Program-made: the position numbers and the translations under genes
From: an uncultured Pelagibacteraceae bacterium
GTDB lineage: Bacteria > Pseudomonadota > Alphaproteobacteria > Pelagibacterales > Pelagibacteraceae
DNA length: 64,000 nucleotides
Direction of reading: 5' to 3'
Assembly: GCA_902633985.1 (NCBI GenBank)
Contig: CACPHV010000003.1
Coordinates: forward strand, 51,782 to 115,781
Shown: piece by piece, positions 36,128 through 42,718 of the stretch
Layout: each line of letters begins with the position of its first letter
How positions within the stretch are numbered: position 1 is the first letter of the stretch
The notes under the pieces: generated by a model
Told to the model about the DNA's origin: nothing
Seen by the model: only the letters and a program-made list of their open reading frames with translations
The model's database searches: none

Positions 36128-37349
36128 AGAAATAGATTTAAGTTTAAATCGTATTCAAAATCTCTCTAAAAAATTAGGAAATCCTCAAGATAAAATCAAA
36201 GCAATTTCTTTTGTTGGAACTAATGGAAAGTATTCAACAATCCAAGCAATGTTTTCTATTTTAAAAGAGGCAAATTTCAAATGCAATATCTACACTAGTC
36301 CTCATATCAAAAATATCAATGAGAGGTTTGTTTTTAATAATGAAGAATTGAATGATGAAGATTTAGCAAATTTACTTGAAGAAATTGAAGAAGCTAACAG
36401 TGGTGAACCAATTACTTTTTTTGAAATACTGACTGCAGCATATTTTTTAAAAGCATCTCAATATCCAGATAATATCAATTTAATTGAAAGTGGATTGTTC
36501 TTTAGATTTGATGCTACTAATATCTTAAAAAATAACCTTGCTAGTGTCGTAACCTCAATTGGCCTTGATCATTTAGATTGGTTGCCTGAAAATGAGCAAA
36601 CTATTGAAAAAATAATTTTTGAAAAAACATCAAGCCTTTTAAACTCAAATATTATAGTGGCAAAACAAAGTACTAATCAAATCACAGATCACATTAAAAA
36701 AACAATATCAAATAATGGATCAAATAAAGTTTTTCATAAAGAAAATTATAGTTTTACGATACAAGAAAATGACTTCTTTTATTATGAGGATCAATTTGGG
36801 GGAATAAAATTACCTATGCCAAATGTTAAGGGTCATTTTCAATTAGAAAATGTTTCAACAGCTATTGCAACCCTAAAAACTTTAAAAGATTTAAATATTA
36901 AAGATGATCACATTAAAAAAGGTGTTTTAAAAATAATTAGTATCGCAAGATTACAAGAAATTAAATCTGGTAAACTTAAGGAACTTGTAAAAGATCATCA
37001 ACTGTTTGTTGATGGTTCTCATAATCCTTTGGGTGCAAAAGTACTAAATGAATACTTGGAAAGTTTAGATTGTGAAAAACATATCATTCTTGGAATGATG
37101 GCAAATAAAGATCATAGAGAATATATGAGTTTCTTTAAGGATATTGCTTCATTAACAACAATAGATATACCCAATCAACCTAATTCAATTAAAGGAAAAG
37201 AGCTAAAAGACAAACTAAATAGCTTTTCAAATATTAATTATAAAGAAAGTATAGAGGATGCTATCAAGTCAATCCCAGTAAAGGAAAACGATATAATACT
37301 AATTACTGGATCGTTATATCTTGCAGGTGAAGTTTTGAATTTAAATTAA
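36081..37349 (+). CDS. folC: bifunctional folylpolyglutamate / dihydrofolate synthase
   Basis: LQELHPKEIDLSLNRIQNLSKKLGNP, FVGTNGKYSTIQAM, YTSPHIKNINERF, DGSHNPLGA. Confidence 0.9.
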   Translation: MKLQKIVCRLQELHPKEIDLSLNRIQNLSKKLGNPQDKIKAISFVGTNGKYSTIQAMFSILKEANFKCNIYTSPHIKNINERFVFNNEELNDEDLANLLEEIEEANSGEPITFFEILTAAYFLKASQYPDNINLIESGLFFRFDATNILKNNLASVVTSIGLDHLDWLPENEQTIEKIIFEKTSSLLNSNIIVAKQSTNQITDHIKKTISNNGSNKVFHKENYSFTIQENDFFYYEDQFGGIKLPMPNVKGHFQLENVSTAIATLKTLKDLNIKDDHIKKGVLKIISIARLQEIKSGKLKELVKDHQLFVDGSHNPLGAKVLNEYLESLDCEKHIILGMMANKDHREYMSFFKDIASLTTIDIPNQPNSIKGKELKDKLNSFSNINYKESIEDAIKSIPVKENDIILITGSLYLAGEVLNLN

Positions 37350-37663
37350 ATATTTCTATCTAAAAATTCTTTCATATGGCTTTCTGGAACACCACCAACT
37401 TTTCTATCTACTTCAACACCTTTTTTATAAATTATAACTGTTGGAACACCTCTAATACCAGCAGCTGAACCCGTGTTAATTCCACCATCTTCAACATCAG
37501 CATAATAGAAATTAGCTTTATCTTTATACTCATCAGATAATTTATCTAAAATGGGTCGCAAAACACGGCATGGTTGGCACCAAGATGCCGAGAACTGTAT
37601 TATAGATATGTCCTCATTCTTAATTTTACTTTCAAAATCTTCATCTTTAAAATCTATAAGCAT
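37346..37663 (-). CDS. trxA: thioredoxin, WCQPC active site
   Basis: ISIIQFSASWCQPCRVLRPILDKL...GIRGVPTVIIYKKGVEV. Confidence 0.9.
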   Translation of the reverse strand: MLIDFKDEDFESKIKNEDISIIQFSASWCQPCRVLRPILDKLSDEYKDKANFYYADVEDGGINTGSAAGIRGVPTVIIYKKGVEVDRKVGGVPESHMKEFLDRNI

Positions 37664-37697: not shown

Positions 37698-39134
37698 CTA
37701 GGCAATTTCATATTTTTTTTCTATAGACATAATAAATTCATTTATTTCATCTAATTTTTTTAATTCTTCATCGTCATCTCGATTTGATGCTTGATCTCTC
37801 AAGGTATCAATTTCTTGGTAGGCCATTCCTATGGTTTGCCACTTTTCTCTATTTTTACTTAAAATTCGTCTAGCAATTTCACTTTTTATATTTTTATATA
37901 AATCTGGTGGCAAAATATGTGGTGCCTCTTGATAGATAATTTTTTGCCCAAACCAACTACATCTTTTATCTTGAAACTTATCCAACATTCTTAATTTATC
38001 TTCCCAAGAAGAACTATGCCAAGTTTTAAATAATTGGGTATCTTTGTTGGGAATAAATTTTTCATATAAAGTTTCTTCTGGCAATAAATCTTCTTGGTTT
38101 TGAGTTTGAGCTTTTTCTTCAGCCGCTTCTCTATTAATGATTTGAATATTTTTACAGAAATTTTCACTACTTCTAACTATTTTTGCTCTTTTTTGAATTG
38201 TTTCTAAATCTAAGTCTACATATGCCTTTTCCTTTAATGCAAACTTTTTATCTAATACAACAGGTGCTTTATTAGTTTTTATCACTCTAAGTGCTTTTGG
38301 ACTAAACTTTTTTAAATAAACTTTAAGATCATTTACTGACAAGTTTAATAATGGTTCGGGATCTCTTCTTAAATCAAATAAATATCCCCACGATGCGTAT
38401 AATGGATGAAAACAATGGTCTGGATGCAGTGTAGAGACAAGGTAGATCATATTTTTTCCTTTAACATTTTCAAATATTGAATAAACACCTTCACTTTTTA
38501 AAATAGTCTCAACACTATTTTTTGTCGATGTACTTAAAAAATTTTCCCAATTGTCTTTATGTTTATCTTTTATAATTCTAAGAATTTTTAAGCTTGTGAA
38601 CGCGTCATGATAGGCTGTGTGTTGTTGAGAGGTATCAAATCCTTGTTGTCTAGCTAAACCTTCTAGAGCAAGACTTTCATTTCCTGCTTCTGTTAATTCA
38701 GTCTTTAATGTTTCAGGATTTAAAGTTTGAGCAACTCTTGCAACGTGTAAACCATCATGTTCTTTATTAGGTGATGAGTGTGTAATATATGGATATCTGT
38801 TTCCTTTAAAAAAATTAAAATGAAACATACGCCTATCAAAATTTAAGTTACTCCAACCCATAAACAATGCTGGGCCAGCCTTAGAAAAAAAGTTTTCTAC
38901 AGCGCCTAAAAAATCATAATGCGAATAATTGCCTTTGGTAAGTAAATCAATACTTGTTGAATTAACCAATAAGGCTTTTGCACTTGGAACTTCGCCTTCA
39001 GGCATTCTGCCACGAATATTTAGCTTACCAATTTCTTTTAAATTTTTATCAACAACTACAGCACCTACTTCAATTATTGAGCCCCAAATTGTGCTGTTGG
39101 TTGTTTCTGTATCGTAAATTACTATTTTATCCAT
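37698..39134 (-). CDS. sbcB: exodeoxyribonuclease I family (DEDDh) protein
   Basis: DKIVIYDTETTNSTIWGSIIEVGAVVVD; AYHDAFTSLKIL; YPYITHSSPN; overall ExoI-like layout. Confidence 0.78.
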   Translation of the reverse strand: MDKIVIYDTETTNSTIWGSIIEVGAVVVDKNLKEIGKLNIRGRMPEGEVPSAKALLVNSTSIDLLTKGNYSHYDFLGAVENFFSKAGPALFMGWSNLNFDRRMFHFNFFKGNRYPYITHSSPNKEHDGLHVARVAQTLNPETLKTELTEAGNESLALEGLARQQGFDTSQQHTAYHDAFTSLKILRIIKDKHKDNWENFLSTSTKNSVETILKSEGVYSIFENVKGKNMIYLVSTLHPDHCFHPLYASWGYLFDLRRDPEPLLNLSVNDLKVYLKKFSPKALRVIKTNKAPVVLDKKFALKEKAYVDLDLETIQKRAKIVRSSENFCKNIQIINREAAEEKAQTQNQEDLLPEETLYEKFIPNKDTQLFKTWHSSSWEDKLRMLDKFQDKRCSWFGQKIIYQEAPHILPPDLYKNIKSEIARRILSKNREKWQTIGMAYQEIDTLRDQASNRDDDEELKKLDEINEFIMSIEKKYEIA

Positions 39135-39140
39135 AAATTC

Positions 39141-39827
39141 TTAAGTTAAATTTGATAGCTCATTAAATTTTTTTAATCTTCCCAAAAACAAATTTTGATA
39201 AACAACTAAATCGTGTCCTTGAATTTTAAACTCTTGAAATAATTTATCTACTGTGCAAACCAAAATTACACAAGAAGTGATATTGGAGTTATACACAATA
39301 TTATGTGCTAATGAATATGCACTTGTTTGAAGAAGCCATGAGTCTATATACTCAGCTTTTTTGGGTTTATTACTTTGTTTAAAATCAATTATTGTTTCTT
39401 TCCCTTCATACACTCCAACACAATCAGCAGTACCTGCATACTTTTCTGGATAATAAAGAGTGCATTCAACACCCCAAATTTCATCCAATCTATTTTTCAA
39501 ACCTTTTTCTATAATTTCTTTAGCCATTAATTTGTATTGTTCATTATCTTCAAAAAAACTTAAATTTTCTCTTCCCAGTAAATAAGACTCTAAATAGTTG
39601 TGCATTTGAGATCCCCTGCTACTTGCTGCCTTTGTTATCGCTTCAGCTTCTTTTTGACCTGTTCTTTCACGCCAATTAACGAGAGCAGCCTTATCTTCCT
39701 CTGATTTTGTTACATCAAGTATTGAGGTTACACTTGGTAATTTTTTCTCCCCTAAAAGATATCTTCTAATTCCATCTACAGTTGCTCTTGAGGATGTAGG
39801 ATAATCATATTTTTTATTCCATTTCAT
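39141..39827 (-). CDS. PD-(D/E)XK nuclease, MGME1/RecB-like single-domain exonuclease
   Basis: LPSVTSIL ... SRGSQMHNYLESYL ... AGTADCVGVYEGKETIIDFKQSNKPKKAEYIDSWLLQTSAYS: GxxD, (I)DFK and QxxAY motifs. Confidence 0.78.
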   Translation of the reverse strand: MKWNKKYDYPTSSRATVDGIRRYLLGEKKLPSVTSILDVTKSEEDKAALVNWRERTGQKEAEAITKAASSRGSQMHNYLESYLLGRENLSFFEDNEQYKLMAKEIIEKGLKNRLDEIWGVECTLYYPEKYAGTADCVGVYEGKETIIDFKQSNKPKKAEYIDSWLLQTSAYSLAHNIVYNSNITSCVILVCTVDKLFQEFKIQGHDLVVYQNLFLGRLKKFNELSNLT

Positions 39828-39902
39828 GATGAATCGAGTGATACCTTGTACTATTAAGTTTAATAATTATCTACTAGATATGATAAAAAGTTAAATTAAA
39901 TT

Positions 39903-41072
39903 ATGGAAGCAATTTTAGGAGTAATAGTAGGATTTGTAGCATTTGGTGTTGTATGGTTTTTTTTACTAAAAGCAAAAAACAATCAAGCAACAATTGATGA
40001 ACTGAAATTAAAAGAAGAAGAATTAAAAAAATCTCAAATAGATTTAGCTACACGGGAGGCAGAGATAAAAGCTGCGGAGGATGCAAAAAAAGATTTAACA
40101 AAACAACTTGACGATAAAAAAGTAGAGGTAACAAACCTTTATAAGAAAGTTGATGGTATCGTTCAAGGAGTAGGTGAATACAAATCAATTTCTGAAAAAG
40201 CAATTAACAAACATGATGAAGCAATAGCACGGCATACAAATTGGTGGGAAAAACTCACAACTAACATCACATATCAAGGAAAATTTAATCAAGAAATTTT
40301 AGAAAATCTTTTAGAAAGTGCAAATCTTGTAAAGGATAGAGATTTTTTTCCACAAAAAAAACAAACTACTTATGACATTGATGGTAATGAAGATAAAGAT
40401 GTAATTCCTGATATGCTTGTAAAATTTCCTGAGAGAAATTATATCATTGATGCTAAAATGTCTTTAACTCATTGGACAAAATACATTAATGAGAAAGATG
40501 AAAATCGAAAAAAACAATATCTTAAAGATCATATATCATCAGTTAGAAATCACTTATTTGGACCAAAAGGTTTAGCTAAGAAAAATTATAACAAACTATA
40601 TGGAATAAAATCATTACAGTCTGTTATTGTTTTTTTCCCAGCATCAAGCTTATATTCTGTAACACTTGATGCTGATAAAACTCTTCAAACAGAGGCTCTT
40701 AAAGCAAACTTTATTTTATCATCCCCTACTGAGCTGTTGAATATGATTAAGGTTTTTGAGCAAATCAAAAGTGAAAAGAAGCAAATAGAAAATATTAGTA
40801 AGATCATAACCTCTGCTAGTAAGATATTTGATAAATACTCAGATGTTAAAACTGCTATTAAAGGAGCGCTTCAATCATATAAAACTCATGCAAATCAACT
40901 ACAAAGTCTAGTTACAAAATCTTGGGGCTCACAAGGTTTAGAGAAGCAAATAAAAAAACTTGAAGATGAACATGGCGTAATACCTGGAAAACAAATTCCT
41001 GAAATACCACCTGAACAAGCAAATATTACTGAGGTTACAGATCCAGAGGAAGACAAAGATAAGTTAAACTGA
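39903..41072 (+). CDS. rmuC: DNA recombination protein RmuC
   Basis: N-terminal TM plus coiled coil, then IPDMLVKFPERNYIIDAKMSLTHWTKYI and downstream RmuC-type domain. Confidence 0.9.
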   Translation: MEAILGVIVGFVAFGVVWFFLLKAKNNQATIDELKLKEEELKKSQIDLATREAEIKAAEDAKKDLTKQLDDKKVEVTNLYKKVDGIVQGVGEYKSISEKAINKHDEAIARHTNWWEKLTTNITYQGKFNQEILENLLESANLVKDRDFFPQKKQTTYDIDGNEDKDVIPDMLVKFPERNYIIDAKMSLTHWTKYINEKDENRKKQYLKDHISSVRNHLFGPKGLAKKNYNKLYGIKSLQSVIVFFPASSLYSVTLDADKTLQTEALKANFILSSPTELLNMIKVFEQIKSEKKQIENISKIITSASKIFDKYSDVKTAIKGALQSYKTHANQLQSLVTKSWGSQGLEKQIKKLEDEHGVIPGKQIPEIPPEQANITEVTDPEEDKDKLN

Positions 41073-41208: not shown

Positions 41209-41880
41209 TTTTACTATTTTTTTAAGATCTATTTTATTATTGGATGACTTAGAAATCATCATACAAGCCTCTGATCTTAATATCTCTCCATCCTTTAAAA
41301 TACGTAAATTATTTGCTTTTAAAGTTTCTCCAGTGGAAGTGATATCTGTAATTATCTCCGAAGAGCCCGTAAAAGGATAGGCTTCAGTTGCACCCAAACT
41401 ATCAATTAATTTAAATTGGGTAACACCCTTTGAAAACAAAAATTCCCTTGTTAAATTTGGATATTTTGTTGCAACTCTTAATCTTTTCTTTTTCTTATCT
41501 TTAAATTCAAATGCAATTTCCTCTAAATCCGCAACAGTTTGTACATCTATCCATGGATCTGGAATTGCAACTACTAATGTGGCCTTACCAAAATTATATC
41601 TTTTTAAAACATTAATTTTTTTTTGAGTGTTTATTTCGCTTTCTTTTAATAAATCAAAACCAGAGAAACCTATATCCAGAGATCCATCGCCAAGTCTTTC
41701 GACAATCTCTCTTGCATGAAGATATAAAATCTTGATATTTTTATATTGCTTTATTGATCCTAAAAGATCTCTTTCTCCTCTTTCAGAAATAAGATTTAGC
41801 TTGTTTTTTTTAAAAATATTTAAAACATCTTTTCTAAGTCTGCCTTTGCTTGGAATTCCAATTTTAATTAATTTATTCAT
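41191..41880 (-). CDS. hisG: ATP phosphoribosyltransferase, short form
   Basis: KIGIPSKGRLRKDVLNIF, LDIGFSGFDLL, RVATKYPNLTREF. Confidence 0.94.
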   Translation of the reverse strand: MNKLIKIGIPSKGRLRKDVLNIFKKNKLNLISERGERDLLGSIKQYKNIKILYLHAREIVERLGDGSLDIGFSGFDLLKESEINTQKKINVLKRYNFGKATLVVAIPDPWIDVQTVADLEEIAFEFKDKKKKRLRVATKYPNLTREFLFSKGVTQFKLIDSLGATEAYPFTGSSEIITDITSTGETLKANNLRILKDGEILRSEACMMISKSSNNKIDLKKIVKLLSKN

Positions 41881-42718
41881 ATTTATATTTTTTTATTTGA
41901 TCTTTATAAAATTCGGTCATTTCATTTATCATTTTTTTATCTAATAAATTTCTAAAATCATTTTTTTTTCCTAAATTAAAAAACTTAATTTTTTCATTTG
42001 TTTTTTTAGAAACTAATGCCTCTTTAAAACCATCATCTTTTTCAAGTTTTTGTAATTTTTCAAATTCACATAATTTAATTACCTGATTAATTTTATCAGA
42101 ATTAATATCAATATTAGAATTAGTTGTATCTCTTAAAAAATTTAAAATTGATTTAAAAGTTTTAAAAGTATCAGCTTGTAAGTCCTCATATCTTATAGTT
42201 AAAACAGGAAACTTTTTACATTCAGACCAACTTTCCTGATGAAATTTCCATGAAAATAAAGGAACAAAGCCTAAAAATTTATTATTTTTTTTTTCAATCA
42301 AAGCCTTTTTTTCATTTTTCATAAAATCAAAAGCCTCATTTTTATTTATTTGATAATGATTGGATAAAGATGTTACCACGTTTCTTGGATCTCTTACTAT
42401 GTGTATTGCTGCTATCGTGTTTTTACTATCTGTAAAACTGAAATTATTTATTTTACACAATGCATTGTGTGTTTTAAAAAATCTTAGTTTTTTGTCTTTA
42501 TTAATATTCTCTTGTTCTTTAATCCAGTATTTCGCAGTACTTTCAGGTTGTAAAAATGTATCTTCATATTTTTTAAAATAATTTACACTTGGAAATTGGT
42601 CTATGAAATTTAGAAGATCAAAATTAAAGTCACTATCTTTTTGATAAAAATAAGATGCTATTAAAGATCTTAACCAGGTATTTCCACTTTTAGGATATGA
42701 TGCAAGCCAAATTATCAT
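41873..42718 (-). CDS. PAPS-dependent sulfotransferase-domain protein
   Basis: 5'-PSB loop WLASYPKSGNTWLRSLI and 3'-PB motif IHIVRDPRNVVTSLSNHY. Confidence 0.9.
   Translation of the reverse strand: MIIWLASYPKSGNTWLRSLIASYFYQKDSDFNFDLLNFIDQFPSVNYFKKYEDTFLQPESTAKYWIKEQENINKDKKLRFFKTHNALCKINNFSFTDSKNTIAAIHIVRDPRNVVTSLSNHYQINKNEAFDFMKNEKKALIEKKNNKFLGFVPLFSWKFHQESWSECKKFPVLTIRYEDLQADTFKTFKSILNFLRDTTNSNIDINSDKINQVIKLCEFEKLQKLEKDDGFKEALVSKKTNEKIKFFNLGKKNDFRNLLDKKMINEMTEFYKDQIKKYKYE

Follow-up and report, generated by a model that had tools for sequence, protein, structure and literature searches.

RecJ is a nearly universal bacterial DNA-repair exonuclease and is among the most conserved repair nucleases, and many alphaproteobacteria carry addB-addA beside trxA-folC-accD-trpAB-F. 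A literature search returned no paper on the addAB-trxA-folC-accD neighbourhood in other Alphaproteobacteria. Recombination is heavy in SAR11, the most abundant bacteria of the ocean, although RecBCD and, in some clades, RecF are reported missing (PMC12374537); in the order described below AddA is absent as well, and so is RecJ in most genomes of the window's genus. The nuclease domain of AddA/RecB is related to that of MGME1-type nucleases (PMC6237815). Mitochondria degrade linear DNA by the joint action of MGME1, the 3′-5′ exonuclease activity of POLG and the TWNK helicase (PMC5928156).

The window is a 64,000-nucleotide stretch of DNA from an uncultured Pelagibacteraceae bacterium of the SAR11 group. 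The original prediction placed an ExoI-family gene, an MGME1-like nuclease gene and rmuC beside trxA, with no AddAB, and all three open reading frames were confirmed there. The features of the locus are as follows.

37346-37663, minus strand: trxA (Pfam Thioredoxin, 2.2e-20), 34 bp downstream of exoI on the same strand
37698-39134, minus strand: exoI (sbcB family), 478 aa, a DEDDh 3′-5′ ssDNA exonuclease with an ExoI C-terminal domain
39135-39140, minus strand: gap of 6 bp between the MGME1-like gene and exoI, an operon-like spacing
39141-39827, minus strand: MGME1-like RecB-type PD-(D/E)XK nuclease, 228 aa, single domain
39903-41072, plus strand: rmuC, 389 aa, divergent, of a subtype unlike that of most close relatives

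The triad is flanked in the window by trpF-trpB-trpA-accD-folC (plus strand) and trxA (minus strand), and 75 bp separate the divergent rmuC from the MGME1-like gene. The short spacing between exoI and trxA is conserved across the window's genus, and trxA is probably co-transcribed with exoI. A promoter scan gave a number of sites no higher than in shuffled sequence. Between hisG and hisZ (window 41873-42718) is a gene that by eye looks like a sulfotransferase; a minority of relatives have it too.

The ExoI protein matched Pfam Exonuc_X-T_C (PF08411, 1.8e-16) and RNase_T (PF00929), both above cut-off, and a SAR11 ExoI profile matched the E. coli ExoI structure 1fxx at 2.2e-47. The DEDDh residues D8, E10, D100, H172 and D177 were invariant in 22 SAR11 ExoIs. 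The window protein scored below the NCBIfam equivalog cut-off (NF008746; 107 bits versus 260) and is, judging from its sequence, a divergent family member. Like Exonuclease I (SbcB), of which it is a full-length homologue, it retains an intact DEDDh site; it differs in that its gene is linked to rmuC and trxA. RmuC was recognized by Pfam (PF02646, 2.7e-40; 138.7 bits against a cut-off of 26) and likewise lay below its equivalog cut-off (NF007686; 106 bits versus 810).

The best PDB sequence match of the MGME1-like protein was human MGME1 (2.5e-10), and the protein also matched phrog_298, annotated ‘exonuclease’, at 3e-48. A Foldseek search with its AF2 model (pLDDT 91.7) again retrieved human MGME1 (1.5e-12, TM 0.75/0.86); the top nine matches were all MGME1, far ahead of DinG, Cas4 and RecE. 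The two proteins share the RecB-type PD-(D/E)XK fold, and the metal-binding and catalytic residues H180, E223, D238, D251 and K253 of MGME1 (PMC6237815) have their counterparts in H76, E121, D135, D148 and K150 of the SAR11 protein. These five residues, together with Q167 and Y171 (numbered from Met) and the QxxxY motif, were invariant in 17 divergent SAR11 copies. Unlike the human enzyme, to which it is ~24% identical, the SAR11 protein has no sign of mitochondrial targeting, and its gene shares an operon with those of ExoI and RmuC. The best reading of the protein is a single-strand exonuclease captured from phage.

The gene is near-fixed in the window's genus (147 of 158 genomes) and occurred in none of 60 genomes of other genera of the order and in none of 304 other Alphaproteobacteria, a set whose one other SAR11 genome also lacked it. 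Phage records yielded 918 matches, including pelagiphages HTVC023P and HTVC027P, and matches occurred in >550 IMG/VR contigs. A host origin for the gene was unsupported: the 58 SAR11 copies formed a single clade (SH-aLRT 95) nested in a marine-phage radiation, a pattern most simply explained by one acquisition from a marine phage. The phage exonucleases (phrog_298; HTVC027P, HTVC023P, T4-like cyanophages and jumbo phages) are homologous over the full length, the HTVC027P copy being 43% identical to the SAR11 protein over 218 aa, ungapped. They differ in context, the SAR11 gene being chromosomal, near-fixed in one genus and beside exoI and rmuC, neither of which was found next to the phage copies. 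Conserved phage genes of other families flank the phage copies; one such family was taken as the terminase small subunit because of its size and location in HTVC027P. In L345 and L349 (phages HTVC023P and DSL-LC04) the phage gene adjoins that of a superfamily II helicase, which may be its partner.

The likeness to human MGME1, the closest structure with its catalytic residues matched, would also suit a role in replication, in which the enzyme trims 5′ flaps during Okazaki fragment processing as in mitochondria and its ties to ExoI, RmuC and RecJ are incidental; the helicase beside the gene in two phages points the same way. The SAR11 gene sits, however, in a tight operon with exoI and rmuC, not with polA or ligase, and near the gene in phage contigs no conserved replication gene was identified, the putative terminase small subunit family being among the conserved neighbours in most of those examined. 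Such a replication role, with incidental ties to the other genes, is considered quite improbable.

The locus was retrieved from divergent members of the order, with its genes labelled by comparing them to those of the window. No more than 200 bp separated exoI from the MGME1-like gene in 51 of 58 MGME1-like loci, and rmuC lay within 1.5 kb in 52 of the 58. Linkage of the triad across relatives, on which the original prediction depended, was thus borne out, and it persists when the genes are moved: in a minority of genomes (G208, G094, G182, G131, G026 and G046 among examples) the trio was relocated or rearranged yet still together. The usual order in the genus is hisG - rmuC - MGME1-like - exoI - trxA on one strand, facing folC-accD-trpA-trpB, and the 365-aa gene beside the MGME1-like gene in relatives is RmuC (Pfam 1.4e-48). 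The divergent rmuC that had been described is accordingly a property of the window species and a few of its nearest relatives; in most relatives another RmuC subtype runs co-directionally with both nuclease genes. In the RmuC tree, the window and the three contigs nearest to it (L001-L003) carry an RmuC of another clade, in opposite orientation; the window copy groups with the RmuCs of G131, G024, G076 and G156, apart from the co-directional RmuC. RmuC was therefore swapped in place.

The MGME1-like gene had a dN of 0.04-0.11 against a dS of ~1, and a dN/dS of roughly 0.04-0.09, within the range of trpB; these substitution rates show it to be under purifying selection.

A small protein family of 124-144 aa, with no Pfam or significant NCBIfam match, also recurs alongside exoI and rmuC, both in cassettes that have moved and in genera other than the window's. 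Its members are located as follows.

L155 7183-7614: member of the 124-144 aa protein family
L156 6933-7328: member of the same family
L157 10563-10997: member of the same family
L159, L161, L199, L201 and L204: further members

The original prediction held that the triad may have replaced AddAB, an idea that AddAB elsewhere in the same genome would have contradicted. AddA was not found in the window's own genome and was above cut-off in 0 of 218 genomes of the order, among them those of eight genera in which the MGME1-like gene is missing; sub-threshold AddA matches in these genomes mapped onto UvrD. The window's own genome is a draft (1.22 Mb, 87% complete, 40 contigs), and gene absences were argued from the 218 genomes and from closed genomes. 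Since AddA is also absent in genera without the MGME1-like gene, loss of AddAB preceded the capture. Those genera, moreover, have exoI next to trxA, in most cases accompanied by rmuC, and replacement of AddAB by the triad as a unit is contradicted. AddA is absent throughout the order, and the distribution of the MGME1-like gene instead tracks loss of RecJ. 

UvrD-type helicase matches, nearly all to UvrD, were obtained in 195 of the 218 genomes; the absence of any match in the window's own genome is probably a draft artefact, and a lineage without a UvrD-type helicase was rejected. Compared with AddAB/RecBCD, the SAR11 set has a related nuclease domain, is without a helicase and has no known chi system. 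The proposal of a helicase-free set for DNA-end processing therefore survives as a description of the locus, and the AddAB replacement attached to it yields to a nuclease that probably covers for RecJ.

RecJ was present in 56 of 60 genomes of other genera of the order versus 26 of 158 in the window's genus, where it was not found in the remaining 132; gain of the MGME1-like gene being a single event, this contrast between genera amounts to one comparison. In the set of genomes with a completeness of at least 97%, RecJ is present in each of the 12 that lack the MGME1-like gene; of the 20 that carry the gene, 13 lack RecJ and 7 have kept it. The two are thus not mutually exclusive, and in all genomes of this completeness RecJ loss occurs only where the MGME1-like gene is present. 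Three genomes of 89-95% completeness (G076, G156 and G174) were without both, and other nucleases occupy the site in them. Deletion of recJ was read in one closed genome, G020, in which 41 bp lie between tRNA-Glu and glpX and recJ is missing; G013, G143 and G005 have tRNA-Glu - recJ - glpX with the same flanking genes as G020. The gene has been cleanly deleted in G020. A small GIY-YIG nuclease gene and the tRNA-Glu border the site with recJ present or not (L411 4088-4441 in G020; L397 8900-9300 in G013).

RecJ status was compared with 18 gene trees, which are not clean because SAR11 genes recombine heavily. The trees of the MGME1-like protein and of ExoI accommodated it most economically, each with 0.34 of the mean number of changes after shuffling, versus 0.48-0.86 on the other 16; one unlinked gene (0.48) and the linked accD (0.49) and hisG (0.53) came near these two. 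For 34 genomes at least 90% complete, RecJ needed two changes on the MGME1-like tree and six on the flanking-gene tree. On a nine-gene tree around uvrD, RecJ status switched nine times among 40 genomes, some of which changes may be missing assembly, and well-supported sister pairs differed. In closed genomes, hundreds of kb separate recJ from the operon, so linkage was ruled out there as the cause of the co-segregation. In G046, recJ lies ~9 kb from the cassette.

These results also bear on whether the association is a coincidence, in which RecJ and AddAB were lost independently of each other through genome streamlining and the phage nuclease has an unrelated role, e.g. salvage of nucleotides from phage or cell DNA. 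RecF and, in some clades, MutSL are likewise missing from SAR11 (PMC12374537), an indication that repair genes are lost generally, and some genomes carry RecJ as well as the MGME1-like gene. Coincidence would, on the other hand, leave unexplained why RecJ loss in near-complete genomes is confined to the nuclease-carrying genus and why RecJ status co-segregates with nuclease alleles despite the lack of linkage, and it is judged decidedly unlikely. 

The preferred model, held with moderate confidence, is that the operon serves DNA end processing and single-stranded DNA degradation, with a phage-captured MGME1-like enzyme acting alongside ExoI and RmuC and covering for RecJ, and for AddAB as well. 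In this model an ancient RmuC and ExoI pair beside trxA would have gained a single marine-phage gene, that of an MGME1-type single-domain nuclease, giving the operon that usually reads rmuC - MGME1-like - exoI - trxA and has rmuC inverted in the window species. The MGME1-like enzyme would, like RecJ, work chiefly from 5′ ends, trimming flaps and single strands; 3′ ends would be left to ExoI; and RmuC would be a third nuclease, probably membrane-anchored. Opening of the duplex would fall to a helicase encoded elsewhere (the lineage has UvrD), and RecOR would load RecA. With 5′-end activity so supplied, recJ could have become dispensable and been lost repeatedly. Polarity of the enzymes, replacement of RecJ, and a joint pathway or shared complex are what we infer from the pattern of genes. 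RecJ belongs to the unrelated DHH family, and the likeness to it is one of proposed function only, namely 5′-end trimming in RecFOR-type recombination.

The stronger form of this model is put forward more tentatively: the MGME1-type phage exonuclease may have functionally displaced RecJ in much of the genus and, with ExoI and RmuC, may form a helicase-free resection and degradation system paralleling mitochondrial MGME1 and POLG. By analogy, the mitochondrial system appears a close parallel to the proposed SAR11 mechanism. The protein families themselves are not new; the combination and the link to RecJ are, and no paper pairing SAR11 with recJ loss or with an MGME1-type nuclease was found in the open-access literature. 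The operon supplies candidate enzymes for handling broken or gapped DNA, predicts a division of labour by strand polarity, and offers a case in which a phage nuclease may have joined the core repair set of a bacterium.

The operon could instead be a restriction partner or defence cassette, in which ExoI, the MGME1-like enzyme and RmuC degrade restriction-cut phage DNA, the job of RecBCD/AddAB elsewhere, and are retained under pressure from pelagiphages. Nucleases with an RmuC domain do act against phage, as in Shield, which is found in Pseudomonas defence islands and whose ShdA homologues degrade DNA in vitro (PMC10270631). PADLOC models for SbcB and RmuC associated with reverse transcriptases matched the window ExoI (3e-57) and RmuC (9e-36), and RmuC has been exchanged for divergent versions, as is common among defence genes. 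In two divergent genomes, the cassette abuts defence genes (G094 and G131, respectively).

L156 9733-16350: DISARM DrmA/DrmB and an AspBHI/Mrr-type restriction enzyme, directly beside the MGME1-like gene
L158 9889-15305: MzaB-MzaC-MzaD, directly beside the MGME1-like gene

The AspBHI/Mrr-type enzyme beside the G094 cassette is a modification-dependent restriction enzyme. The suggestion that the triad might act in phage-DNA restriction thus gains some support, which comes from these two genomes. Against a primary defence function, the operon is near-universal in the genus, lies mostly between housekeeping genes (hisG, trxA-folC-accD) and is constrained like a core gene. No Shield model was among the PADLOC matches, and the window RmuC stands among housekeeping genes rather than in a defence island; although the accessory SbcB/RmuC models matched, the window neighbours include no reverse transcriptase, as a DRT system would have, and no specificity module. 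A defence role would not predict the tie to RecJ either. It is regarded as unlikely to be the main function, and the operon may additionally serve to degrade restricted phage DNA.

Other nucleases were found at the same site. In G024, G076 and G156 (L190, L191 and L192), exoI and the MGME1-like gene are both absent, and beside trxA and rmuC are a Dna2-like protein of 1124-1134 aa and a 259-aa Cas4-like PD-(D/E)XK nuclease. The larger protein combines a TM0106 RecB-like nuclease, RNase_H_2 and an IGHMBP2/Dna2-like helicase (TIGR03491, 4.9e-68). In G174, the Dna2-like and Cas4-like genes occur alongside ExoI. Strict exclusion between the Dna2-like gene and ExoI or the MGME1-like gene fails, both being present in several genomes. 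The repeated gain of overlapping nucleases at this site fits a shared DNA end-processing task. In L163, L190, L191 and L192, from genomes of the genus, TrpA and TrpB are encoded where they are in the window but are only ~30% identical to the window's, which suggests that these too were swapped for distant versions.
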